Shown in pieces: positions 29,058 to 63,677 of a DNA stretch of 64,000 bases. The first letter of the stretch is position 1. Each line of letters starts with the position of its first letter. Made by a program: the position numbers and the translations under genes. This DNA is from Chryseobacterium nakagawai (GTDB lineage: Bacteria; Bacteroidota; Bacteroidia; Flavobacteriales; Weeksellaceae): positions 558,001 to 622,000 of the forward strand of contig NZ_LR134386.1 in the NCBI RefSeq assembly GCF_900637665.1, written 5' to 3'. The notes beneath the pieces are model-generated. The model was given only the letters and a program-made list of their open reading frames with translations. It was not told where the DNA came from and ran no database searches.

Positions 29058-31910
29058 ATGAATGTTAAACTACGTGTATTAAGTGCTGGAGCATTGTTCT
29101 TCTTGGGGCAAGCAGCTTTTGCACAGACAACAAAAAAAGATACGGCTAATGCAACTCAGATTGAGGAAGTTGTAATGGTTGGGTTCGGCCAGAAAAAAAC
29201 AATTCAGGAAATGACAGGGTCTGTTAGTACCATGTCTGCTAAATCAATTGAAGATATTCCTGTTGCTTCTGTCGACAAAATGTTGCAGGGTAGAGTTGCT
29301 GGGGTACAGACAGGTTCTGCCTCTGGACAACCTGGAGGTATGACGAATGTTCGTGTTCGTGGTATTTCTTCAATTAATGGAGTATCTTCACCTATTTATA
29401 TTGTTGATGGGGTAAGGATTTCTTCAGGAGATGTATCAAAACAGACTACTACTTCAAATGCTTTAGCAGGTCTGAATCCTGATGATATTGAAAATGTAAC
29501 AGTTCTTAAAGACGCAGTTTCTACTGCTGTTTATGGTGCTGATGCTGGTGCTGGGGTAATTGTTATTACAACAAAAAGTGGTAAAAAAGGTAAACCAAAA
29601 TTCAATGTTGCATTCAATAGCGGTTTTAATGACAGAGCAATAAAACCACACGACTCTTTTAATACTGCAGATTGGAGAACTTATTTACTTCAGGCATATT
29701 CAAACCGTGATAATAAGACATATACAGCTGCTCAGATTGCTGCTGGTGCTGTAGGTGCTAATGCTGCAGGCGTTTTTAGCGCAGGCGATCAAACTACAGA
29801 TTGGCAGAATGCAACCCAGAAAAAGGGATATCAGCAAAATCTTGATATTAGTATGTCAGGAGGAAATGATAAATTTACATATTACTCATCCTTTAATTAC
29901 TTTAACCAAGAAAGTGTTGTTAGAGGGTCTTATTTTAATAGAATTGCTTTTACAAATAAATTATCATATCAGGCAACAGATAAACTTAAAGTAAGTACAG
30001 ATTTCCAGTTCTCATATGGTAAAATTAGTACACTAAGTAATGGAGGTGCGTTTTCAAACCCTATTCTTACACAATATTTTAACAGACCAACTGACCCTAT
30101 AAGAAATTCTGATGGAACTTGGAATTTTGGAGATGGAGGAAGATTAAGTAATGGAAATTTCAACTCTGCAGCTTTACAAGATTTGAATTATGTGCGTGGA
30201 GGCACATTCAGAGCTTTTGCAAATTTAAATGTTGAATATAAAATCTTAAAAAATCTTACATACAGATTCGTATTCTCTCCTGAATATATTAATTTAGAAG
30301 AAGATACATATTGGAATCCGATACACGGTGACGGTGCCAATTATGGAGGATACCAAAAAACGGGTGTTAACCGATTTTTTAATTTCAACGTACAAAATAT
30401 CTTAGATTTTAATTATAGACTTGATCGTCATAATTTTGGAGCTTCATTAATCCAGGAAGCCTATAAAAAAGATAATAAATATTTAACTGCAACTGGAATT
30501 ACTGTTGGTACTCCAACATTACAGACTCTAACTAATTTTATTGTTCCTTTTGGATATCAAGGAGAGAACGAAATTTCATCTCGTTACGGATACGCTGTTA
30601 CAGGTCACTATGACTATGATAAGTTAGTGATGTTAGATGCGTCATACAGACGTGATATCCTTTCGCAGTTTCTTCCAGGAAAGAAAGCTGGTAACTTTTG
30701 GTCTGTTGGGGTAGGTTTAGATGTAGCACGATTTGATGTTATTAAAAATATTGATGCAATCTCAATGTTGAAATTTAGAGCATCTTATGGTAAGCTAGGA
30801 AATCAGGTTTTAGCTAATCCTTATGCTACATATTCTTATACAACTAACTATAATGATTTTGCTGCAGCATCTATAAATAGAGTTTTCAATCCTAACTTAT
30901 CTTGGGAAACAGTAAACCCTTTCAATGTTGGATTTGATTTTGGATTCTTCAAAAACAGATTAACAATTAGTGCAGAATATTATAACAAGAAAACAAAAGA
31001 TCTAATCTATAATATTCCATTATCTGGAGCTCAGGGGGGTATGGATCCTGATGAAACCAATAACCCAAATAGAAACAACTATCTTGTTGATAATATTGGA
31101 ACGTTGGTTAACAAAGGTTTTGAATTTTCTGTAAATGGAGATATCTTTAGAGGAGATAGAAACCAATTTAATTGGTCTGTTGGGGCTAATTTATCCACAT
31201 TGAACAATGAGATTACAGAATTATATGGACAACCTGTTAATGCTGCTACTACAACTGTTAGAGTTGGTGAGGGAGTAAGAACATTCTATTTAAGAAAGTG
31301 GGCAGGAGTAGATCCAAATAATGGTGATCCACTTTGGTATATTAATGGAGTTGATGGTGCAACGACTAATGATTATAATAAAGCTCAACAAGCTGTACAA
31401 GGGTCTTTCTTAAGTAATGTATTTGGTGGAGCTAATACTTCCCTTTCTTATAAAGGATTCTCTCTAGATTTACAGTTTACTTATGGCTTTGGGGGTAAAA
31501 TTTATGATAACTGGGCTAACTACCTTTACTCTGATGGACAGTATTCTGTTAATTACCCAGGATATGGTGATGTAATGGGAGATTATTGGACTCCTACAAA
31601 TACGGGAGCATCTAATCCAAAACCAATTATTGGTGGTAACAAGAGATCAAACCAAGCGTCAACAAGATTCTTATATAAATCCGATTACATTCGCTTAAGT
31701 AATGCAAGATTAGGATACACATTCGATAGTGATTTCCTTAAGGGATCAGGTCTTGGTTCAGTACAAGTATATGTAATGGCTAATAATGCTTGGACTTATA
31801 GATTTGATAAAAATCTTAAGTTTGACCCTGAAACCAATATTTCTGGATTTACAGATCTAAACTTACCAGTATTGAAATCATTCTTATTTGGTGTTAATTT
31901 AAGTTTTTAA
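29058..31910 (+). CDS. SusC/RagA family TonB-linked outer membrane transporter (pair 1)
   Basis: 950 residues with signal peptide MNVKLRVLSAGALFFLGQAAFAQ. A TonB-box-like IEEVVMVGFGQ is followed by the plug (SVDKMLQGRVAGVQTGSASG, VRVRGISSINGVSSPIYIVDGV, GVIVITTKSGKKG), then the 22-strand barrel ending in LFGVNLSF. The N-terminal carboxypeptidase-regulatory-like domain often found before the plug is absent. With SusD it forms a lidded importer. No glycosidase, peptidase or sensor accompanies it, so the substrate (glycan, peptide or other) is unknown. Confidence 0.95.
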   Translation: MNVKLRVLSAGALFFLGQAAFAQTTKKDTANATQIEEVVMVGFGQKKTIQEMTGSVSTMSAKSIEDIPVASVDKMLQGRVAGVQTGSASGQPGGMTNVRVRGISSINGVSSPIYIVDGVRISSGDVSKQTTTSNALAGLNPDDIENVTVLKDAVSTAVYGADAGAGVIVITTKSGKKGKPKFNVAFNSGFNDRAIKPHDSFNTADWRTYLLQAYSNRDNKTYTAAQIAAGAVGANAAGVFSAGDQTTDWQNATQKKGYQQNLDISMSGGNDKFTYYSSFNYFNQESVVRGSYFNRIAFTNKLSYQATDKLKVSTDFQFSYGKISTLSNGGAFSNPILTQYFNRPTDPIRNSDGTWNFGDGGRLSNGNFNSAALQDLNYVRGGTFRAFANLNVEYKILKNLTYRFVFSPEYINLEEDTYWNPIHGDGANYGGYQKTGVNRFFNFNVQNILDFNYRLDRHNFGASLIQEAYKKDNKYLTATGITVGTPTLQTLTNFIVPFGYQGENEISSRYGYAVTGHYDYDKLVMLDASYRRDILSQFLPGKKAGNFWSVGVGLDVARFDVIKNIDAISMLKFRASYGKLGNQVLANPYATYSYTTNYNDFAAASINRVFNPNLSWETVNPFNVGFDFGFFKNRLTISAEYYNKKTKDLIYNIPLSGAQGGMDPDETNNPNRNNYLVDNIGTLVNKGFEFSVNGDIFRGDRNQFNWSVGANLSTLNNEITELYGQPVNAATTTVRVGEGVRTFYLRKWAGVDPNNGDPLWYINGVDGATTNDYNKAQQAVQGSFLSNVFGGANTSLSYKGFSLDLQFTYGFGGKIYDNWANYLYSDGQYSVNYPGYGDVMGDYWTPTNTGASNPKPIIGGNKRSNQASTRFLYKSDYIRLSNARLGYTFDSDFLKGSGLGSVQVYVMANNAWTYRFDKNLKFDPETNISGFTDLNLPVLKSFLFGVNLSF

Positions 31911-52695: not shown

Positions 52696-53133
52696 ATGGT
52701 ATTTGATTTTAAAAACATTCATATAGGAGCGTGTATTAAGGAAAGATATGAGAGCTTGGGAATTTCAATGATTCGGGTTTGCAACTTTCTTAATATTACA
52801 GATGATGAAGTGTACGAAATGTTTATGCAAAAAAGTCTGGATACGGAAGTTCTGTTGAGATGGAGTAAGCTTTTAGAATATGATTTCTTTAGAATCTATA
52901 CCCAGCATATCATCATATTTGCACCGCAAGCCAATATGGGATATAATACAGTTAGTCCCAAAAAGGATTCTTCTCTTCCGCAGTTTCGGAAGAATGTATA
53001 TACTAAAGAAGTAATAGATTTTGTTTTGGAGCTTATCAGTACCGGACAGAAAACAAAACAACAGGTAATAGAGGAATACAAGATTCCTAAAACTACACTT
53101 TATAAATGGGCTAGTAAGTATGATAAATCTTAA
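52696..53133 (+). CDS. Two-HTH DNA-binding protein (XRE-like plus transposase-like HTH)
   Basis: 145 residues. Residues 8-70 look like a Cro/C1-type HTH (IGACIKERYESLGISMIRVC, LDTEVLLRWSKLLEYDFFRI). Residues 98-145 are a transposase-type HTH (YTKEVIDFVLELISTGQKTK, EEYKIPKTTLYKWASKYDKS). The catalytic part of a transposase is absent. Proteins with this fixed layout recur in Chryseobacterium genomes (from memory), so it is probably a domesticated regulator rather than an IS remnant. The target is unknown. Confidence 0.75.
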   Translation: MVFDFKNIHIGACIKERYESLGISMIRVCNFLNITDDEVYEMFMQKSLDTEVLLRWSKLLEYDFFRIYTQHIIIFAPQANMGYNTVSPKKDSSLPQFRKNVYTKEVIDFVLELISTGQKTKQQVIEEYKIPKTTLYKWASKYDKS

Positions 53134-53211
53134 ATAGGTTTTTCATTTTGATAGTTAGAAAATAAATGGTTGGCTCATGCACTGAAATATTAAATTAAAA
53201 ACATTGAATAT

Positions 53212-53544
53212 ATGATAGAACAAGGTCCTGATTATATAAGAATTTATACCGATATCATTGCCATGAAGCATCCTCAAAAGCTTGAAATATGTGCGCCTAT
53301 TTTACAAAAAAAAAGATTGACGGCATTGGATGTTCTTAAGCTTAATGAAATTGTCTTCGGATTAGAAGGAATTGAAACAGAAAAATTTAATCAAAGACAT
53401 AAGTCTTATGATAAGTCTGCTATTATAAAAATTTTAAATTTTCAAAAAGACCATGGATATAATAATACTCAAATGGCGAATCAATTTAAAATGAGTAGAA
53501 ATACTTTAGCAAAGTGGAAAAAAAGTTTTGAATGTAATCAATAA
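53212..53544 (+). CDS. Small HTH protein (transposase-like)
   Basis: 110 residues. The first 60 (YTDIIAMKHPQKLEICAPIL, LTALDVLKLNEIVFG) are helical. The last 45 form a helix-turn-helix: KSAIIKILNFQKDHGYNNTQ, MANQFKMSRNTLAKWKKSF. It has no catalytic domain. It lies 78 bases after the two-HTH protein and the two are probably co-transcribed. Its terminator follows. It may be a partner regulator. Confidence 0.72.
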   Translation: MIEQGPDYIRIYTDIIAMKHPQKLEICAPILQKKRLTALDVLKLNEIVFGLEGIETEKFNQRHKSYDKSAIIKILNFQKDHGYNNTQMANQFKMSRNTLAKWKKSFECNQ

Positions 53545-53580: not shown

Positions 53581-53606
53581 AATGGTGCTTAGGCACCATT
53601 TTTTTG
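53581..53606 (+). terminator. Intrinsic terminator after the HTH genes
   Basis: AATGGTGC, loop TTAG, GCACCATT then T6. It separates the HTH genes from the riboswitch-controlled operon. The rest of the gap to 53,758 is AT-rich and empty. Confidence 0.88.
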
Positions 53607-53758
53607 ATATTATGAGATGGTTTTATCATTAAATACAATTTAATGATATTTATCATATTTATTAAAATGATAATTTATTTAAGGTCTTATAGTGGTGGGT
53701 ATTAATAAAATATTATAATAAATTTTGAAAAATTATCATGAAAATTTTATAAGTCTAC

Positions 53759-53789
53759 TTGTTTTGTAGACTAAAAGTTTATAGATTTG
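53759..53789 (+). promoter_or_regulatory. Promoter of the riboswitch-susCD-2 operon
   Basis: TTG (53759-53761), 20-base spacer, TAGATTTG (53782-53789), a perfect TAnnTTTG match. The expected transcription start, near 53796, lies just before the riboswitch. Confidence 0.8.
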
Positions 53790-53806
53790 CAACCATATTT
53801 CGATCG

Positions 53807-53901
53807 GCTTATAAAGAAAGATGGAGGGAACTGACCCTACGAAGTCTTGACAACCTGCGTTATGTAAGGTGTTACATTCAGCCTTTAAAGGAAAAATAAG
53901 C
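53807..53901 (+). ncRNA. SAM-I (S-box) riboswitch
   Basis: All main SAM-I parts can be paired. P1 is GCTTAT (53807-53812) with ATAAGC (53896-53901). P2 is AAGA and AGGG with CCCT and TCTT, enclosing GATGGAGGGAACTGACCCTA (kink-turn region). The conserved ACGAAG and GACAACC joints follow. P3 is CTG...TGTAA-GGTG-TTACA...CAG and P4 is CCTT-TA-AAGG. The core matches the family consensus GGAGGGA-ctggCCCt-aGAAg-cgGCAACC with few changes. It would bind S-adenosylmethionine and turn the downstream genes off. Confidence 0.92.
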
Positions 53902-53925
53902 ATTTGGTTTATCGTATTTATCGAT

Positions 53926-53953
53926 GCCCTTTGCTGTTTTTTCAGTAAAGGGC
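53926..53953 (+). terminator. Expression-platform hairpin after the riboswitch
   Basis: GCCCTTTGCTG (53926-53936) pairs with CAGTAAAGGGC (53943-53953) around a T6 loop, an 11-bp stem with one G-U pair. What follows is AAAATTTT rather than a pure T run, so it may be a weak terminator or act otherwise. GCCTTT of P4 (53881-53886) could pair with AAAGG of this stem as an antiterminator, which would fit SAM-off control. That alternative pairing is inferred. Confidence 0.6.
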
Positions 53954-53985
53954 AAAATTTTAATATATGGTAAATAAAATTGATT

Positions 53986-56928
53986 ATGATTAATAAAAAT
54001 CTATTTAATTCTAAAATTTGGATTCCACCCGTTGCTGTATTTTTCTTAGGAATTGTAAGTGTAAGCGGGCAAAATTCCAAACCGAAAAAGGATACTCTTA
54101 AAGAAAAGGAAATTGATGAAGTGGTTGTGGTGGCTTACGGAAAAGCAAAAAGAAATAGCTACACCGGTTCCGTAGCAACAATTTCCAGTGATAAAATCAA
54201 TAACAGACCTGTGACCAACATTACCAAAGCATTGGAAGGACAGGTTCCCGGAATTCAGGTTACCGGTGCATCAGGACAGCCTGGAGCTACTTCTACGATC
54301 AGGATCAGAGGGGTAGGTTCGGTTAGTGCTTCCAGTGAGCCTTTATACGTTGTGGATGGGATTCCTTTTGACGGAAACATCAATGCGATCAGTCCTAATG
54401 ATATAGAATCCATCAGTGTTTTAAAAGATGCTACGGCAAGTGCTTTGTATGGTTCAAGAGGAGCGAACGGAATTATTATCATTACCACAAAATCCGGTAA
54501 AAAAGGAGAAGCCAGGGTAAACCTTAACATCAGCCAGGGGTTTTCAGGCAGAGCGGTAAAAGATTATGAGCAGGTCACTACGGATCAATATTTCCAATTG
54601 TATTGGGAGGCAATGAGAAACGGATACCAATCCGGTCAGATTTCTGCACAACAGGCAGCACAGATGGCAACAGACAATATTGTATCTGGTACCGGATTAT
54701 CAATTAATCCTTATGGAGCTAATTATCCAAAACCAGTGGGAACAGACGGGAAATTATTACCGGGGGCGAGAGCTTTATGGAATGATGACTGGAGAGATGT
54801 TCTTCAAAGAGTTGCTTCCAGAAATCAGGTTGATCTAGACATCAGCGGGGGAAATGAAAAAAGTAATTATTTCTTTTCATTAGGTTATCTAGATGATAAA
54901 GGAATGGCTATTGAATCTGGGTTTAAAAGATACAGTACGAGATTAAAAATAAATTCTGAAGTTAAAAAATGGTTGAATGTTGGAGCGAACTTAAGTTACA
55001 CGAACAGTATTCAGCAGGCTCCAAGTTCTTCAGATTCTAAGGCGAGTAATATTATTCAGGCGGCAAGGGCAATTCCGTCTTTTTATCCTTATTATGAAAG
55101 AAATCCGGATGGATCTTATGTAGTGGATGCGGAAGGGAACAAGATTTATGATTTTGGAAGATACAGACCTACTGCGGCACTTCAGAATCAAAATTTAGCG
55201 GCAAGTTTACCATTGGATAAAAATGAAAATAAGATCGATAATTTTTCAGGGAAAGGATTTATGGAGTTTACATTTCTTCCGGAGCTGAAGTTTAGAACAA
55301 GTTTTTCTGTTGATCTTGTTAGCTTTAATGAGCATTTTTATACCAATCCGCTTCTTGGACAAGGAAAGGAGACCGGAGGATCTGTAAGAAAAGCGAATAG
55401 CAGAACACTTTCCTATACGACCAGTAATATTCTGACTTATGATAAGAGGTTTGGAAAACATCATATTAATGTATTGGGAGGTCATGAATTTTATAAATAT
55501 GATTACCAAATTATTTCCGGTAGCAGACAAGGTTTCTCATTACCCAACTACTATGAGCCTGATGCAGCCTCTCTGTTAGTGGATTTTGGAGGGAATAGTG
55601 ATAAATTAAGCTTGTTGAGTTTCCTTGGAAAGGTGGAGTATGATTTTGATAATAAATATTTCTTATCTGCATCTACAAGAGCTGATAGTTCTTCAAGATT
55701 TTCAAAAGATAACAGATGGGGGACATTCTGGTCTGTAGGAGGTTCATGGAAACTTTCAAATGAAGAATTTATTAAAAATCTAAATTTCTTCAATCAGTTG
55801 ACATTACGTGCAAGCTATGGAGGACAGGGGAATGATAAATTATTAAGGCCCAATGGACAGAGCCTTTATTATGCTTATCAGGAATTATACAGGGACTCAC
55901 CTCTAGCTGGTGAGCCTGGAAAAACGTTGGAGAAAGTAGGAACTCCTAATCTGAAATGGGAAACCAATCTTAATTTGAATGTAGGACTTGAGTTTGCCAT
56001 TCTTAATAACAGAATTAAAGGAAACGTAGAATATTTTGAAAGAAAAAGTAAAGACCTCCTCTTTAATGTACCGGTTGCTCCGTCTTTAGGGATCACTGAT
56101 TATCCGGCCAATATTGGAACAATAAAGAATACAGGTTTTGAATTTTCATTATTCACAACACCTATTAAAAATACGGACTTCCAATGGAACGTGGATATTA
56201 ATCTGAGCACCTTAAACAATACGGTAACTAAATTGCCTAAAGGTCCTCTTGTGGTAGGAACAACCAAACAATTGAATGAAGGGGGATCTGTATATGATTT
56301 CTTTATTCCGGAATGGGTAGGAGTAGACCCAAGTAATGGAAAACCATTGTGGAAAACCATTACAAAGGATGCTAATGGAAATCCGGTGGAAGGAACAACT
56401 TCAGAATATGCCAAGGCTACAAAAATGCTGCAAGGTTCTGCTCTGCCTAAGTTAACTGGAGGAGTCAGTACGAGCATTAATTATAAGAATTTTGATTTTT
56501 CTGCATTATTGACATTCAAGATTGGGGGGAAGATTCTGGACACAGATTATACTTCCATCTTACATAATGGAAACTTAGGTGGACGCGCATGGGGTACGGA
56601 AATGCTAAACAGATGGACTCCTGACAATCCTTATACAGATGTTCCGGCTTTAAGCACAAAAACGAATAATTGGACTTCAGTTTCTACAAGGTTTCTTTAT
56701 TCAGGAACCTATGCAAGGCTTAAAAACGTAAGCTTAGGATATACATTACCATCTGATTATTTTGAAACGATCGGATTGAAGAAATTCAGAATTTATATTC
56801 AGGCAGAGAATCTTCTGACCTTCTATAAACATAAAGGAATGGATCCTGAACAGGCATTGGATGGGACAACTTATTACCGATACCCGGCGATGAGAACGAT
56901 TACTTTTGGTCTTCAGGCAACATTCTAA
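53986..56928 (+). CDS. SusC/RagA family TonB-linked outer membrane transporter (pair 2, SAM riboswitch controlled)
   Basis: About 980 residues from the ATG at 53986 (MINKNLFNSKIWIPPVAVFF, signal peptide to VSVSGQ). A TTG two codons upstream is less likely. IDEVVVVAYGKAKRN is the TonB-box region. The plug follows: ITKALEGQVPGIQVTGASGQ, IRIRGVGSVSASSEPLYVVD and GIIIITTKSGKKG. The barrel ends in FGLQATF. No N-terminal carboxypeptidase-like domain is present. Its SAM-I leader implies expression when SAM/methionine is low, so the cargo may be methionine, a methionine peptide or another sulfur source. Confidence 0.95.
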   Translation: MINKNLFNSKIWIPPVAVFFLGIVSVSGQNSKPKKDTLKEKEIDEVVVVAYGKAKRNSYTGSVATISSDKINNRPVTNITKALEGQVPGIQVTGASGQPGATSTIRIRGVGSVSASSEPLYVVDGIPFDGNINAISPNDIESISVLKDATASALYGSRGANGIIIITTKSGKKGEARVNLNISQGFSGRAVKDYEQVTTDQYFQLYWEAMRNGYQSGQISAQQAAQMATDNIVSGTGLSINPYGANYPKPVGTDGKLLPGARALWNDDWRDVLQRVASRNQVDLDISGGNEKSNYFFSLGYLDDKGMAIESGFKRYSTRLKINSEVKKWLNVGANLSYTNSIQQAPSSSDSKASNIIQAARAIPSFYPYYERNPDGSYVVDAEGNKIYDFGRYRPTAALQNQNLAASLPLDKNENKIDNFSGKGFMEFTFLPELKFRTSFSVDLVSFNEHFYTNPLLGQGKETGGSVRKANSRTLSYTTSNILTYDKRFGKHHINVLGGHEFYKYDYQIISGSRQGFSLPNYYEPDAASLLVDFGGNSDKLSLLSFLGKVEYDFDNKYFLSASTRADSSSRFSKDNRWGTFWSVGGSWKLSNEEFIKNLNFFNQLTLRASYGGQGNDKLLRPNGQSLYYAYQELYRDSPLAGEPGKTLEKVGTPNLKWETNLNLNVGLEFAILNNRIKGNVEYFERKSKDLLFNVPVAPSLGITDYPANIGTIKNTGFEFSLFTTPIKNTDFQWNVDINLSTLNNTVTKLPKGPLVVGTTKQLNEGGSVYDFFIPEWVGVDPSNGKPLWKTITKDANGNPVEGTTSEYAKATKMLQGSALPKLTGGVSTSINYKNFDFSALLTFKIGGKILDTDYTSILHNGNLGGRAWGTEMLNRWTPDNPYTDVPALSTKTNNWTSVSTRFLYSGTYARLKNVSLGYTLPSDYFETIGLKKFRIYIQAENLLTFYKHKGMDPEQALDGTTYYRYPAMRTITFGLQATF

Positions 56929-56945
56929 CTTTTAAAATTTGAACA

Positions 56946-58439
56946 ATGAAAAATTTAAAATATTTATCTTTTGCATTAATAGGATTATGGTCACTCACAA
57001 GTTGTGAAAGTGAGATGGATACTGCTCCTACAGATCAGGCTAACAGTGTGGAAGTCTTCAAAACGGCTGAAAGTGCAGAAACGGTTATCAATGGAACCTG
57101 GGCAAAATTTAACAATGACGGGACTACTTTTGCTAATATCGGATATTCGACTGTATTAAGAGCAAGTGATGCGATGGGAAGCGATGTAGCTGTGTTGACC
57201 AATAAGTATGGTTTCTCATCTACTTATGATTTTACAGAAATGGTGAACAATACAGTAGGTCGTCCTTTATTTATCTGGACGATGTTGTATTCCACTATCA
57301 ATAATATGAATAATGTTATTGCCAAAATTGATGCTGCAGAAGGAAGCCAGGCAAAAAAAGACCAGGTAAAGGGGCAGGCAAAGGCATTGCGTGCTTTCTG
57401 TTATCTGAATATTGCCAGCTTTTATCAATTCAGTTATCTTAAAGATAAATCAGCACTAGTTGCTCCAATTTATACGGAACCTTCAACAACAAGTACTGTT
57501 GCAAAGAAAAAATCCAGTCTGGAGGATGTTTATACTTTAATTAAAAGTGATCTTACGGATGCCGATAATTTATTGAAGAATTATACAAGAAATAATAAGG
57601 ATAAAATTAACAGGAACGTAGTAAATGGGATTCTTGCAAGAGTTTATCTGAATACAGGAGAATGGAGTAAGGCTGCAGCATCGGCAAAAACAGCAAGAGA
57701 AGGTTTCCCTCTGATGACTCCTGAAAAGTACAAGGAAGGATTTAATGATATTAATAATGAGGAATGGATCTGGGGAAGCAGACAAACTCAGGAGCAGTCC
57801 GATGGGAGTTATGCTTTTCACTATTTGGATGTATCTTCATCAGGAAGCTATTATTACAGCTTTATGGCAGATCCTTATTTTAAAAAATTATTTGATGCCA
57901 ATGATATCAGATTCCAATTGTTTTCATGGGATGCTCTTCCGGCAAGGGAAGGGTTGTTGAGATATGCTAAATTTAAATTTAAGGCAACGCTTATTGCAGA
58001 TCTTGTTTATATGAGAGCAGCTGAAATGTATTTGATCGAAGCAGAATCAGAAGCAAGAAACGGAAATGTAACTCAGGCAGTAACAGCTTTAAATCAATTG
58101 AGGTCAGCAAGAAATGCTAATGCTTATATAGGCCCATTAACACAAAATGATGTGGTAAATGAAGTTTTGATTGAAAGAAGAAAAGAATTATTTGGTGAAG
58201 GATTCTCTCTTTCAGATATTATCAGAACGCAGGGAACTGTGGAAAGAAAGCCATTTGTAGATGCAGAAGGAAAGCCTATTAAAGTTCAGGTGACCACTTC
58301 TAACGGAACGATAAAAACCGTTGATGGAAAAGGTCATAGCGTATTTGATCTTCCGAATAAGACTCCGTTTGTACCAAACAGTCCTTACTATTTATTCAGT
58401 ATTCCACTGAAGGAGATTGAAAATAATCCCAATTTATAA
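56946..58439 (+). CDS. SusD/RagB family surface lipoprotein (pair 2)
   Basis: 497 residues with lipoprotein signal (ALIGLWSLTSCESE). QAKALRAFCYLNIASFYQFS and VNGILARVYLNTGEWSKAAA are the SusD TPR segments, and VYMRAAEMYLIEAESEARNG with LIERRKELFGEGFSLSDIIR are C-terminal hallmarks. It follows SusC after 17 bases and ends before an intrinsic terminator, so the operon is just this pair. It is the substrate-binding lid of the SAM-regulated importer. Confidence 0.95.
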   Translation: MKNLKYLSFALIGLWSLTSCESEMDTAPTDQANSVEVFKTAESAETVINGTWAKFNNDGTTFANIGYSTVLRASDAMGSDVAVLTNKYGFSSTYDFTEMVNNTVGRPLFIWTMLYSTINNMNNVIAKIDAAEGSQAKKDQVKGQAKALRAFCYLNIASFYQFSYLKDKSALVAPIYTEPSTTSTVAKKKSSLEDVYTLIKSDLTDADNLLKNYTRNNKDKINRNVVNGILARVYLNTGEWSKAAASAKTAREGFPLMTPEKYKEGFNDINNEEWIWGSRQTQEQSDGSYAFHYLDVSSSGSYYYSFMADPYFKKLFDANDIRFQLFSWDALPAREGLLRYAKFKFKATLIADLVYMRAAEMYLIEAESEARNGNVTQAVTALNQLRSARNANAYIGPLTQNDVVNEVLIERRKELFGEGFSLSDIIRTQGTVERKPFVDAEGKPIKVQVTTSNGTIKTVDGKGHSVFDLPNKTPFVPNSPYYLFSIPLKEIENNPNL

Positions 58440-58468
58440 TCTATAGTCCATATTAGATTTGATTTTTT

Positions 58469-58494
58469 AACCACCGCTTTTGCGGTGGTTTTTT
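58469..58494 (+). terminator. Intrinsic terminator of the susCD-2 operon
   Basis: AACCACCGC, loop TTTT, GCGGTGGTT then T4. The following 350 bases to 58,841 are AT-rich and hold no gene. Confidence 0.92.
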
Positions 58495-59315: not shown

Positions 59316-62300
59316 GTGTTAGATAAAATAATAAAATTCAGTATTAAAAACAAGGTGGTTATTGGCCTTATGACCCTGGTATGGATTATCTGGGGAGTAT
59401 GGAGTGCCACCAAGCTTCCAATAGATGCTGTACCGGATATTACTAATAATCAGGTACAGATCATTACCGTATGCCCTACACTGGCAGGGCAGGAAGTAGA
59501 ACAATTGGTGACTTTTCCTATTGAGCAGAGTATTGCCAATGTTCCGGGTATTCAGGAAACAAGAAGTATTTCGAGATTCGGACTTTCCGTAATTACCGTA
59601 GTATTCAAAGAGCAGGTTGATGTGTACTTCGCGAGACAGTTAATCAGTGAACAACTGAAAAGCGCAGTAGAAGAAATTCCTAAGGGAGTAGGAACTCCCG
59701 AACTAGCTCCTGTAAGTACAGGTCTGGGAGAGGTGTATCAGTATATTCTCCACCCTAAAAAAGGAAGTGAGAAAAAATATAATGCTAAAGAGCTTCGAAC
59801 CATGCAGGACTGGATCGTTAGAAGACAGCTCAACGGAACACCGGGAGTTGCTGAGATCAATAGTTTTGGGGGAGAATTAAAACAATATGAAGTCGCTATA
59901 GATCCTAACCGATTGAAAGCAATGGGGATCAGTATCAGTGACTTATTCACAGCACTTGAAAAAAATAATCAGAATACCGGAGGGGCTTATATTGATAAGA
60001 AGCCTAATGCTTACTTTATCCGAGGAATAGGGTTAGTGTCGTCTCTGGATGATATAAAAAATATAGCCGTTAAAAATGAAACAGGTAGCGTTCCTATCTT
60101 TGTGAAAGACGTGGCAGATGTTCGTCTGGGAAGTGCAGTTCGATACGGGGCTTTAACGTATAACGGAAAAGTAGATGCAGTGGGAGGAGTTGTGATGATG
60201 CTGAAAGGAGCAAACAGTAATGAGGTAGTAGAGAATGTTAAAGCAAAGATTCCTACCATCCAAAAATCTCTTCCGAATGATGTGGTCATTGAGCCATTTC
60301 TGGATAGAACAGATTTGGTAAGCAGAGCGATCAGTACCGTTGAGAAAAACCTGATGGAAGGAGCATTAATTGTAATTTTTGTTCTTGTAGTCTTCTTGGG
60401 GAATCTAAGAGCAGGACTTATTGTAGCATCAGCCATTCCACTTTCCTTGTTATTTGCATTGGGAATGATGAATGTCTTTGGAGTAAGTGCGAACCTAATG
60501 AGCTTAGGAGCAATAGACTTTGGGCTTATTGTTGATGGAGCTGTTATTATCGTTGAAGCAACCCTGCATTTACTTCACAATAAAAATAAAGGAATGCTGA
60601 CCCAGGTTCAAATGGATCAGGAAGTAGGGAGTGCAGCCTCTAAAATGATGAACAGTGCTATATTTGGACAGATTATTATTCTGATTGTGTATGTTCCGAT
60701 TCTTACACTGGCAGGAGTAGAAGGAAAAATGTTTACCCCAATGGCTAAAACGGTAGGTTTTGCAATTATTGGAGCAACAATACTATCCATTACCTATATT
60801 CCCATGATGAGTGCATTGTTTTTATCTAAAAAAATCTCACATAAAGAGACGCTTTCAGATAAAATGATGAATGCCATACAGAAGGTGTATCAACCATTGT
60901 TACAAAAAGCAATTAGAATCAAATATATTATTGTTTCAGCAACCATTGCCATTTTTGTCCTTGCTGCTTTCATCTTTAAGAATATGGGGGGGGAATTTAT
61001 TCCACAGCTACAGGAAGGAGATTTTGCATTCCACTGTATTCTTCCACAGGGAAGTTCATTAAGCCAGAGTATAGAAACATCTATGCAGGCTTCCCGAATT
61101 ATCAAACAATTTGATGAGGTGAAAATGGTAGTAGGGAAGACCGGTTCAGCCGAAGTTCCTACAGATCCAATGCCTCCTGAAGCAACCGATATGATTGTGG
61201 TATTGAAGCCACAAAGTGAATGGAAAACCAAAAAATCTTACAATGAGCTGGCTGATGAGATCAGCGAAAAATTAGAAGCTATTCCGGGCGTATTTTTTGA
61301 AAAGAACCAACCGATTCAAATGCGTTTTAATGAACTGATGACGGGGATCAGACAGGATGTTGCCGTGAAGATTTTTGGAGAAAATCTAGACTCGCTATCA
61401 GTATATGCTGATAAAGTAGGAAAAGTAATCCAGTCCGTTGATGGGGCAACTGCTCCACAGATAGAAAGAGTAAGTGGTTTACCCCAGATCAATGTACAAT
61501 ATGACAGAACAAGAATTGCTAACTACGGATTGAATATTGAAGATGTCAACAATGCGGTAAGTACTGCCTTTGCAGGTAAAGCCGCCGGGCAAGTCTTTGA
61601 AAATGAAAGGCGTTTTGATTTGGTAGTTCGCTTGGATAGTCTTCACAGATCAGATATTTCAGATGTTAATAATTTAATGATTGCAACGGCCACAGGAGCA
61701 CAAATTCCATTGTCTCAGGTTGCCAATGTAAGTTATAAACTAGGTCCAGCACAGATTAGCCGTGAACAGGGAAAACGTAGAATTGTTATCGGATTTAATG
61801 TAAAAGGCCGTGATGTGGAAAGTGTAGTAAAAGATATTCAGGCAAAACTTGATAAAGAAATAAAGCTTCCATCGGGGTACTACTTTACCTATGGCGGACA
61901 ATTTGAAAATCTACAGGAAGCCAGTAAACGTCTAATGATTGCGGTTCCAATATCATTGCTGCTGATCTTTATGTTGTTATATTTTACTTTCCGTTCATTT
62001 AAGCAGGCAGGATTGATCTTTACAGCGATTCCAATGAGCGCCATTGGAGGTATATTTGCGCTGCTCCTGAGAGATATGCCATTCAGTATCAGTGCCGGAA
62101 TCGGATTTATTGCGCTCTTCGGAGTAGCCGTGCTTAACGGAATTGTTTTGATCGGAACTTTCAATCAACTTGAAAAAGAAGGTGAAACTGATCTTCTGAA
62201 AAGAGTATATGAAGGAACAAAAAGCAGACTCAGACCGGTGTTAATGACCGCTACAGTAGCTTCATTAGGATTCTTGCCAATGGCTATTTCTACGGGAGCT

Positions 62301-63677
62301 GGAGCAGAAGTTCAAAAGCCTTTGGCTACAGTAGTAATTGGTGGGTTAGTATCAGCTACATTCCTCACCTTATTTGTCTTGCCAATGCTGTATATTATTT
62401 TTAATACAAAGGTTTTAAAAAGAAAAAAGAATAACACAGGATCATTTACTATAATTCTTATTTTAGGATTTATGATGATGGGGCAGGCTTTTAAGGCACA
62501 GTCCAGAGAAATGTCTGTTGAACAAGCTGTCCAGATAGCGGTAGATAATAATTTAATTTTAAAATCAAAAGATTTAAGTATTAAATCAGCCGAAGCATTG
62601 AGACCAACATCCAAAGAACTTCCCAAGTTAGGTTTTGAAGCGCAGTTGGGGCAGTACAATAGCCGGAATTTTGATCAGTCTTTTGCGATCTCCCAAAGTA
62701 TTCCTTTTCCAACACTCTTTAAAGCAAAAAAAGAATTAATCAACGAAAATATTAAGAGTAAGCAGATTGATAAAGAAGTGACAGCCAATGAACTGATACG
62801 ACAGGTTCGAACCTACTATTATCAGATTGAATACCTCCAGTACAATAAAGCACAGCTAACAAGTCTTGACAAGGTTTATGATGATTTTATAAGGATTGCT
62901 ACTGTAAGATTTAAAGCTGGAGATATCAAAAAAATTGAAATAAATACAGCAGAAACGCAAAAAGGAGAAATTGACCTGTTACTCAGACAGAATGAGGTGT
63001 ATTTAAATAATGCCTATAAAAATTTAAAAACTATTTTAAATATTTCAGAAGGTTTTGAGGTTCCTTTCAATAAGAATTATGAACCTTTAAAAGTAGAAAA
63101 TATCCTCGACAGTTCTATTGTAGCTAACAATCCGTCAGTAAGAGCATTTTATCAGGATATGGAAATTGCAGAAAAAAATAAAAAGGTTGAGAAATCCTTA
63201 GGGTTACCTGATTTTAGTTTAGGATATACAAACCAGTCATTGATTGGCTTTCAGACCGTAAACGGAATGGAAAGATATTATGGATCAGGAAATCGTTTCA
63301 GTGCGGCTACAGTGGGTGTTGCCATTCCACTTACCTTTGGAGCTACAAAAGCAAGAATGCAATCGTTGGAATATCAGAAGCAGGTTGCTGAGACCAATGC
63401 AAAAATGCAGCAAAAGCAATTAACCACACAGTTGGAAAATGCTTTCAGTCAATATCAGCAGGATATACAGCAGTATGATTATTATACGAGTCAGGCCCTG
63501 CCTAATGCTGAAAAGATTGTAAATGCAGCTCAGTTAGGCTATAAAACAGGGGAAATTTCTTATGTAGAATATCTTTTTGCCTTACAAACAGCTACTAATA
63601 TTCAATTAAAATATCTGGAGTCAATCCAACAGGTCAATCAATCTGTAGTAACTATTAATTCAATCATTAATAAATAA
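59316..63677 (+). CDS. CzcA/CusA-type heavy-metal RND efflux pump fused to a TolC-like outer membrane factor
   Basis: 1,453 residues from a GTG start. Residues 1 to about 1,035 are a heavy-metal RND pump: KLPIDAVPDITNNQVQI, then IDFGLIVDGAVIIVEA in TM4 with D401, D407 and E414. These match the CzcA relay D402/D408/E415 (divalent Zn/Co/Cd type) and not the CusA pattern. The last RND helices end near 1,035. Residues 1,044-1,062 are hydrophobic (FTIILILGFMMMGQAFKAQ) with a signal-peptidase-like AFKAQ-S. The remaining 390 residues are a TolC-like outer membrane factor (SVEQAVQIAVDNNLILKSKD). It makes a single-gene pump and channel, with the adaptor downstream. Confidence 0.93.
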   Translation: MLDKIIKFSIKNKVVIGLMTLVWIIWGVWSATKLPIDAVPDITNNQVQIITVCPTLAGQEVEQLVTFPIEQSIANVPGIQETRSISRFGLSVITVVFKEQVDVYFARQLISEQLKSAVEEIPKGVGTPELAPVSTGLGEVYQYILHPKKGSEKKYNAKELRTMQDWIVRRQLNGTPGVAEINSFGGELKQYEVAIDPNRLKAMGISISDLFTALEKNNQNTGGAYIDKKPNAYFIRGIGLVSSLDDIKNIAVKNETGSVPIFVKDVADVRLGSAVRYGALTYNGKVDAVGGVVMMLKGANSNEVVENVKAKIPTIQKSLPNDVVIEPFLDRTDLVSRAISTVEKNLMEGALIVIFVLVVFLGNLRAGLIVASAIPLSLLFALGMMNVFGVSANLMSLGAIDFGLIVDGAVIIVEATLHLLHNKNKGMLTQVQMDQEVGSAASKMMNSAIFGQIIILIVYVPILTLAGVEGKMFTPMAKTVGFAIIGATILSITYIPMMSALFLSKKISHKETLSDKMMNAIQKVYQPLLQKAIRIKYIIVSATIAIFVLAAFIFKNMGGEFIPQLQEGDFAFHCILPQGSSLSQSIETSMQASRIIKQFDEVKMVVGKTGSAEVPTDPMPPEATDMIVVLKPQSEWKTKKSYNELADEISEKLEAIPGVFFEKNQPIQMRFNELMTGIRQDVAVKIFGENLDSLSVYADKVGKVIQSVDGATAPQIERVSGLPQINVQYDRTRIANYGLNIEDVNNAVSTAFAGKAAGQVFENERRFDLVVRLDSLHRSDISDVNNLMIATATGAQIPLSQVANVSYKLGPAQISREQGKRRIVIGFNVKGRDVESVVKDIQAKLDKEIKLPSGYYFTYGGQFENLQEASKRLMIAVPISLLLIFMLLYFTFRSFKQAGLIFTAIPMSAIGGIFALLLRDMPFSISAGIGFIALFGVAVLNGIVLIGTFNQLEKEGETDLLKRVYEGTKSRLRPVLMTATVASLGFLPMAISTGAGAEVQKPLATVVIGGLVSATFLTLFVLPMLYIIFNTKVLKRKKNNTGSFTIILILGFMMMGQAFKAQSREMSVEQAVQIAVDNNLILKSKDLSIKSAEALRPTSKELPKLGFEAQLGQYNSRNFDQSFAISQSIPFPTLFKAKKELINENIKSKQIDKEVTANELIRQVRTYYYQIEYLQYNKAQLTSLDKVYDDFIRIATVRFKAGDIKKIEINTAETQKGEIDLLLRQNEVYLNNAYKNLKTILNISEGFEVPFNKNYEPLKVENILDSSIVANNPSVRAFYQDMEIAEKNKKVEKSLGLPDFSLGYTNQSLIGFQTVNGMERYYGSGNRFSAATVGVAIPLTFGATKARMQSLEYQKQVAETNAKMQQKQLTTQLENAFSQYQQDIQQYDYYTSQALPNAEKIVNAAQLGYKTGEISYVEYLFALQTATNIQLKYLESIQQVNQSVVTINSIINK

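Follow-up and report, generated by a model that had tools for sequence, protein, structure and literature searches.

We have analysed a 64-kb stretch (positions 558001-622000, hereafter the window) of the 5.6-Mb single-contig genome of Chryseobacterium nakagawai, in which an S-adenosylmethionine (SAM) riboswitch of the SAM-I class precedes susC and susD, the genes of an outer-membrane importer. We think it likely that this riboswitch is the transcription OFF switch of a stand-alone SusCD importer that refills the methionine/SAM pool, and that a probable operator of Rrf2 type is combined with it. When SAM is plentiful, the aptamer would keep its helix P1 closed, a hairpin at 53925-53954 would form and transcription would stop short of susC. 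At low SAM, the 3' strand of P1 would pair with the 5' arm of this terminator, forming an antiterminator at 53898-53935, and susCD would be made. The pair would then carry out TonB-dependent uptake of a nutrient that refills the methionine/SAM pool, the most likely cargo being peptides that contain methionine, the free amino acid or a close derivative of it. With a palindrome at 53753-53771 probably serving as the operator of an Rrf2-family sulfur regulator, import would need both sulfur limitation and low SAM.

Many SusCD pairs have undefined substrates, which are usually guessed from neighbouring genes for carbohydrate-active enzymes (CAZymes). A ligand-sensing RNA provides a direct and testable prediction of the nutrient class for a pair without CAZyme neighbours in its transcript, and the arrangement described here is conserved in two genera. 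If our reading is true, it would point to outer-membrane methionine scavenging in Bacteroidota, SAM-riboswitch control would join the known modes of SusCD regulation, and the shared operator would help to name further sulfur transporters.

The SAM-I leader of susCD

A scan of the whole window against Rfam gave a sole match above the gathering score, RF00162 (SAM-I) at 53806-53902 on the forward strand, the strand also of the promoter elements, hairpins and susCD genes given below (64.5 bits, gathering score 44.4, E 1.1e-12). The match is complete (model positions 1-108) and includes P1-P4, and the pseudoknot partners CUGA and UCAG can be recognised by eye. An earlier note, made from the letters of this DNA, had claimed a complete SAM-I aptamer and proposed the comparison with RF00162; the significant match across the whole model bears this out, and the aptamer would be expected to bind SAM. 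Upstream of it, a -7 box TAGATTTG at 53782-53789 fits by eye the Bacteroidota consensus TAnnTTTG, and a TTG at 53759-53761, 20 nucleotides (nt) upstream of the box, can be read by eye as the -33 element. An E. coli-type promoter scan of the window, with Bacteroidota-type promoters outside its scope, found 30 sites against a shuffle mean of 23.3.

Downstream of the aptamer, a terminator scan found an intrinsic-terminator-like hairpin of 12 pairs at 53925-53954, followed by AAATTTTAAT, and alignment covariation and folding energies predict the antiterminator at 53898-53935. The alignment consists of 78 leaders, that of the window and those of 77 named Chryseobacterium and Elizabethkingia loci. 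The tested pairs were taken from RNAalifold on parts of the same alignment and extended by hand, so that pairing percentages are biased towards them, and since the leaders are related, the shuffle tests overstate the significance of covariation. Within these limits, 97.3% of cells are paired in the antiterminator and 94.6% in the terminator. Four of the ten antiterminator pairs are changed on both sides, double-change cells number 25 against 4.5 in shuffles (none of 500 shuffles being as high), and pairing falls to 22-54% when the partner is shifted by 1-3 columns. Covariation of the terminator (12 double-change cells against 5.0 when shuffled) is weaker, because its number of double-change pairs was matched by 24 of 500 shuffles.

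When the leader is folded to 53942, the antiterminator reaches -28.1 kcal/mol against -24.1 for P1, with an unconstrained optimum of -29.4; once the terminator is complete, P1 plus terminator reaches -40.9 kcal/mol against -34.8. Since these energies fit the order of events, SAM holding P1 would give termination. The leader is also more stable than all of 200 dinucleotide shuffles (z -3.39). By computation, P1 competes with the downstream platform, the antiterminator and the terminator being mutually exclusive and both having double changes. In its build the leader resembles a switch that turns transcription OFF, a direction of control that we infer. The OFF-sense regulation put forward in the earlier note is supported by the RF00162 match, the covariation of the two exclusive hairpins and the 78 of 80 related loci described below.

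The gene susC (53986-56928) encodes a TonB-dependent outer-membrane transporter of the SusC/RagA family with 980 amino acids (aa), which matches TIGR04056 (767.9 bits, cut-off 368.25) and the signature TIGR04057 (63.3 bits, cut-off 46.2). Its start is the ATG at 53986, kept in all 78 aligned leaders, with TTG at 53980 offered as an alternative by the list of open reading frames (ORFs). The gene susD (56946-58439) encodes a surface lipoprotein of the SusD/RagB family with 497 aa (PF14322, 63.8 bits; PF07980, 63.1 bits; both over cut-off), and its lipobox Cys20 is invariant in 35 of 35 aligned SusDs. The terminator scan, which gave 11 sites in the window against a shuffle mean of 3.3, placed a hairpin of 8 pairs with the tail TTTTTGATAT at 53581-53600, after the preceding gene and separating it from susCD, and one of 9 pairs with the tail TTTTGTTTGA at 58469-58490, 30 nt past susD. 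Because these terminator-like hairpins flank the pair, the transcript is probably susC-susD only. This agrees with two further statements of the earlier note, that the riboswitch lies between a promoter and a two-gene susCD operon, and that no metabolic gene shares the transcript.

Conservation and the SAM-I regulon

A search for relatives of SusC confirmed 103 stretches, and the best 80 were kept, a choice that favours close relatives; the nearest named ones are from Chryseobacterium, with up to 94% identity. A SusD-like ORF, 53-94% identical to the SusD of the window, follows SusC in all 80. Looking upstream of SusC in relatives, as the earlier note had suggested, revealed a SAM-I core (≤3 substitutions) within 800 nt in 78 of the best 80, and in 77 of the 78 loci it lies 158-166 nt before the matched SusC start. 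In Olivibacter (L078, 59% identity) the core lies at -523 from the match; the protein there is longer and has two possible starts, relative to which the core is at -163 or -196. Rfam was applied to ten loci and found SAM-I in L060, L063, L068, L078, L140, L144, L163 and L200, and none in L084 and L085. Six of these belong to the kept SusC loci; the four with the core motif (L060, L063, L068, L078) match RF00162 and the two without it (L084, L085) do not. No Rfam match was obtained in flanks of up to 1.5 kb for twenty SusC homologues of lower identity (34-40%), and since L227 has only 96 nt upstream, 19 of them are informative. In a sample of the genus, RF00162 was found in 60 of 60 genomes, and a short copy like that of the window (96-100 nt, 61-69.5 bits) in 44 of them; the short-copy loci that were read (L141-L143) are SusCD.

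Three SAM-I sites were found in the C. nakagawai genome, at a methionine operon, at an operon for a TonB receptor and a permease, and at susCD. The methionine operon encodes a MetX-like protein (below family cut-offs) and O-succinylhomoserine sulfhydrylase, and by eye homoserine dehydrogenase and the MetH N- and C-terminal genes also follow its SAM-I. In the receptor operon, an 819-aa TonB receptor is followed by a 432-aa amino-acid permease, whose best NCBIfam model is an L-type amino-acid transporter, below cut-off. Their relatives in L087 (62% identical for the receptor, 60% for the permease) match PF00593/PF07715 and PF13520, respectively, and L144 and L145 are likewise receptor plus permease loci with SAM-I.

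Among the genomes sampled, RF00162 was present in 208 of 247 at phylum level, in 55 of 75 at class level and in 35 of 50 at family level (34 of the family genomes over the cut-off). We fetched 140 SAM-I loci, comprising 55 of 56 family sites and 69 of 71 class sites outside the genus, 11 phylum sites among those listed, and five genus sites picked on purpose; the omitted sites are two that score below the cut-off and one that lies within a stretch already fetched. The first genes were classed by comparison with nine proteins of the C. nakagawai genome. A methionine gene is first in 113 loci and second in three (116 of 140 together). A TonB receptor is first in nine (L087-L089, L122, L132, L134, L140, L144, L145) and SusC in seven (L138, L139, L141-L143, L163, L200), the purposely picked genus loci making up two of the nine and three of the seven. 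Something else comes first in eight, two of which, L191 and L194, resemble metE and metF by eye. In L140, from Elizabethkingia, the SAM-I stands on a relative of a 926-aa TonB receptor of the C. nakagawai genome.

Other SAM-I SusCD cases are L163 and L200. In L163 the SusD that accompanies SusC belongs to a different Pfam family (PF12771). The 45% identity of the SusC of L163 is that of a local BLAST match, the protein having a very long branch in the tree; in L200 a gene for an M14 carboxypeptidase follows the pair. On a tree of 44 SusC proteins the SAM-I label has to change four times, and well supported branches force two of these changes; the tree does not distinguish gains from losses. 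Recruitment of SAM-I to SusCD pairs may have taken place on more than one occasion in Bacteroidota.

Some other SAM-I arrangements were observed among these loci. Two divergent SAM-I riboswitches lie within about 600 bp of each other (L093 and L130, G381:C1:2381419-2382024). In genomes of the same order (L221, L223, L224), SAM-I stands before genes for TlpA-like thioredoxin/DUF4369 and class V aminotransferase-like proteins, with domains checked in L221 only, and in L188 before those for an ATP-grasp protein, a luciferase-like monooxygenase and an amino-acid permease-like protein (the permease by eye).

A palindrome in the promoter

The perfect palindrome GTCTACTTGTTTTGTAGAC (GTCTAC-TTGTTTT-GTAGAC) at 53753-53771 overlaps the -33 region and is a candidate operator of a protein regulator. 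The earlier note did not mention it, so that its picture of the regulation, sound for the riboswitch, was incomplete; control of susCD is probably dual, by operator plus riboswitch. The form GTCTAC-N7-GTAGAC is present at both transporter SAM-I promoters of the genome (imperfectly at the receptor operon), and because the methionine-operon promoter shows no such palindrome, it is shared by both SAM-I transporter operons and not by the SAM-I synthesis operon. With ≤1 substitution it was found in 78 of 79 promoters, those of the window and 77 Chryseobacterium/Elizabethkingia loci, and it is absent in Olivibacter L078. Among 25 genus genomes, all 20 with a short SAM-I copy carry the palindrome (0-1 mismatch) just upstream, and the five without a short copy have no palindrome of this form at any SAM-I. 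At the receptor plus permease operon, the form GTCTAC[C/T]TTTGCNNTAGAY lies over the -7 box, the C. nakagawai copy being imperfect (GTCTACCTTTGCACTAGAT). This form was matched 40 times, in 38 of the 60 genomes, the control giving 7 matches, and 37 of the 40 abut a SAM-I site; three of these sites, that of C. nakagawai, L144 and L145, were read as receptor plus permease.

When ≤2 mismatches are allowed, the 25 genus genomes contain 32 matches against 6 for the reversed control, 20 at SusCD-type SAM-I and 12 elsewhere. Ten of these 12 were read (G023:C35 and G016:C18 remaining unread). The palindrome was found next to an Rrf2 gene with a TauE exporter gene behind it (L257, L294, L295, L297; Pfam confirmed in the C. 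nakagawai genome only), in front of a TonB receptor similar to the 926-aa one (L281, L290), about 590 bp from another SusC (L293, L296), and in one genome (G011, without the short SAM-I copy) before metN-metI (L292), where MetN is the best family, below the equivalog cut-off, and MetI is truncated at the locus end. The palindrome of L291 lies inside a coding region and was taken as chance. The C. nakagawai genome has 7 matches with ≤3 mismatches against 3 in the control. Its weaker sites, which have 3 mismatches, include one upstream of the 926-aa TonB receptor (L265), one some 600 bp away from a SusC (L266) and one next to a peroxiredoxin gene (L268), and others have no evident link to their surroundings. 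At about position 3639 of L268, the same form of palindrome stands between the gene for a 1-Cys peroxiredoxin and a divergent gene that looks channel-like by eye.

The Rrf2 protein beside the palindrome matches the Rrf2 superfamily (112.3 bits, cut-off 73.3). It would be the natural candidate to bind the palindrome, because its gene is adjacent and because a paralogous, 47% identical Rrf2 heads a sulfate assimilation cluster, cysH-cysD-cysN-...-cysK-cobA-...-cysI; both the identity of the operator's protein and the sign of its action are what we infer. The palindrome at the promoter of the cys cluster is degenerate, with three departures from RTCTAY-N7-RTAGAY by eye, and was not counted. An operator regulon outside the two genera is not claimed, the family scan being at noise (53 matches against 55 reversed, ≤2 mismatches, 50 genomes), and two of the 53 matches are Elizabethkingia SusCD sites. 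Palindromes with ≤2 substitutions in the upstream regions of the 140 SAM-I loci were near noise (19 against 13) and were not used. Exact palindromes are present in 7 of the 140, L163 being the only case outside Chryseobacterium/Elizabethkingia, where the mean count after shuffling the other 133 is 0.044.

Cargo of the importer and its neighbourhood

Because the palindrome recurs beside Rrf2/TauE, before another TonB receptor and, in one genome, before metN-metI, the evidence speaks for an importer that is under dual sulfur control and takes up methionine, peptides that yield it or another organosulfur compound, and it suggests that the importer scavenges methionine or another sulfur nutrient when the cell runs short. 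This class of substrates had been predicted in the earlier note, and it gains independent support from these palindrome links and from the other SAM-I sites, which lead methionine synthesis and the TonB receptor plus permease; the choice among the three is not separated by these results and stays conjectural. Three points favour peptides somewhat, not decisively: SusC is nearest to RagA among PDB relatives by a small margin (400.5 bits, the next SusC homologue, 5t3r, having 374.6), free methionine is of a size that porins admit, and L200 has the M14 gene. A narrower reading, to which we give rather less than even confidence, is that Chryseobacterium and Elizabethkingia have a dedicated SusCD for methionine or methionine peptides with a two-signal gate, in which an Rrf2-type regulator would read cysteine/sulfur and SAM-I would read SAM, and which would form a methionine-scavenging regulon with the receptor plus permease operon. 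If so, SusCD systems would include a class devoted to a single amino acid, distinct from those for glycans and bulk peptides.

Several results weigh against a methionine-refilling importer under these two controls. The T run after the window's own terminator (AAAATTTTAAT) is short and weak; four Elizabethkingia copies (L063, L065, L066, L068) have seven T after theirs. Two Chitinophaga SusCD loci (51-52% identity) have no SAM-I core upstream, and 16 of the 60 genus genomes are without the short SAM-I copy. Rrf2 and palindrome were seen side by side in 4 genomes out of the 25 of the genus, at 2 mismatches, and the Rrf2 protein next to the palindrome scores higher for IscR (75.5 bits, cut-off 207.55) than for CymR (63.9 bits, cut-off 195), both far under the cut-offs. 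The window's susCD transcript contains no peptidase, permease or metabolic gene. L163 and L200 are the weaker SAM-I SusCD cases: in L163 a GH43-like gene (by eye) is found 1.35 kb past SusD, as would suit a glycan context, and in L200 SAM-I and SusC are about 500 nt apart. The narrow lead of RagA over other solved SusC chains says little about peptides. For SusD, the best PDB matches are 3snx (401.1 bits) and 3lew (373 bits), RagB matching weakly at about 40 bits; both are labelled merely as (putative) SusD-like carbohydrate-binding proteins, and a paper search on the two codes found no ligand. An AlphaFold2 model of SusD (35 sequences) had a predicted local distance difference test score (pLDDT) of 61.3, too poor for a fold search.

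Prediction of the substrate from PDB relatives was dropped, the labels of 3snx and 3lew being generic and the paper search on the codes yielding nothing relevant. The former may be BT1439 of B. thetaiotaomicron; according to PMC9758874, a BT1439 insertion mutant grows poorly and BT1439 is tied to vancomycin uptake.

A broader reading is general organosulfur scavenging (of sulfonates, sulfate esters, glutathione-like or other sulfur compounds, not methionine), with SAM-I as one of two readouts of sulfur shortage. The recurrence of the palindrome by the Rrf2 gene and TauE exporter fits it, as does the paralogous Rrf2 at the head of the cys cluster, although the motif of that promoter is only degenerate. 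We regard it as unlikely, with a methionine gene first or second in 116 of the 140 fetched SAM-I loci and the susCD transcript showing no gene for a sulfatase, for desulfonation or for glutathione. That the pair imports ordinary glycans or peptides without special sulfur content, SAM-I reporting the general growth state, would accord with most characterised SusCD pairs, which import glycans or peptides, and with the GH43-like gene of L163. The dominance of methionine genes at SAM-I loci, the 20 other SusC homologues without an Rfam match (one with little sequence upstream) and the lack of CAZyme or peptidase genes in the window transcript make this very improbable. Equally hard to credit is import of a cofactor or precursor for methionine synthesis, such as a corrinoid for the cell's own MetH: MetH is B12-dependent, its genes follow the SAM-I of the methionine operon, and B12 supply would affect SAM. 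Bacteroides corrinoid import is described for BtuB/BtuG (PMC10404256, PMC6143338), and the lipoprotein here is of the SusD family. No cobalamin riboswitch over the cut-off was found in the 64-kb window.

The proposed importer for the methionine/SAM pool can be compared with known systems. Like SAM-I (S-box) leaders, its leader has a full-length aptamer over the Rfam cut-off and a terminator/antiterminator competing with P1, as in Firmicutes; it differs in having SusC-SusD as target, not methionine synthesis, salvage or inner-membrane transport, and in the candidate second operator. Family membership, gene order, lipobox and the slightly better PDB match to RagA liken the pair to RagAB and other SusCD systems, whereas the riboswitch leader and a transcript free of CAZyme, sulfatase and peptidase genes set it apart. 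In Bacteroidota transporters with cobalamin or thiamine pyrophosphate riboswitches (BtuB and others), an end-product-sensing riboswitch likewise shuts off a transporter for the product or its precursor; here, judged from sequence only, the ligand would be SAM and the receptor a SusCD pair. Rrf2 sulfur regulons of the CymR type are resembled in the palindrome by an Rrf2 gene and TauE exporter and in the paralogous Rrf2 of the sulfate assimilation cluster, but binding of the palindrome by Rrf2 is here a candidate only, with CymR and IscR scores under their cut-offs. No report of SAM-I on a SusCD pair was found in open-access full-text literature; regulon databases, subscription papers and supplementary files were outside the scope of this search, and an entry there is possible. 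The parts seen of PMC2211319, PMC3766115, PMC4239095 and PMC6281302 do not show such a case.

As for the neighbourhood, a further SusC-family gene is located in the window at 29085-31907, 35% identical to the SAM-I-led SusC and without an Rfam match nearby. Two small ORFs (52696-53544) stand directly before the susCD promoter, the first being a weak match to a resolvase helix-turn-helix domain just below the cut-off and the second having no Pfam match. Beyond the hairpin at 58469-58490 are genes for a DUF6660 protein and an RND-type pump. At 59316-63677, a single ORF of 1453 aa joins an AcrB/CusA-type pump (PF00873) with an outer-membrane efflux domain (PF02321).

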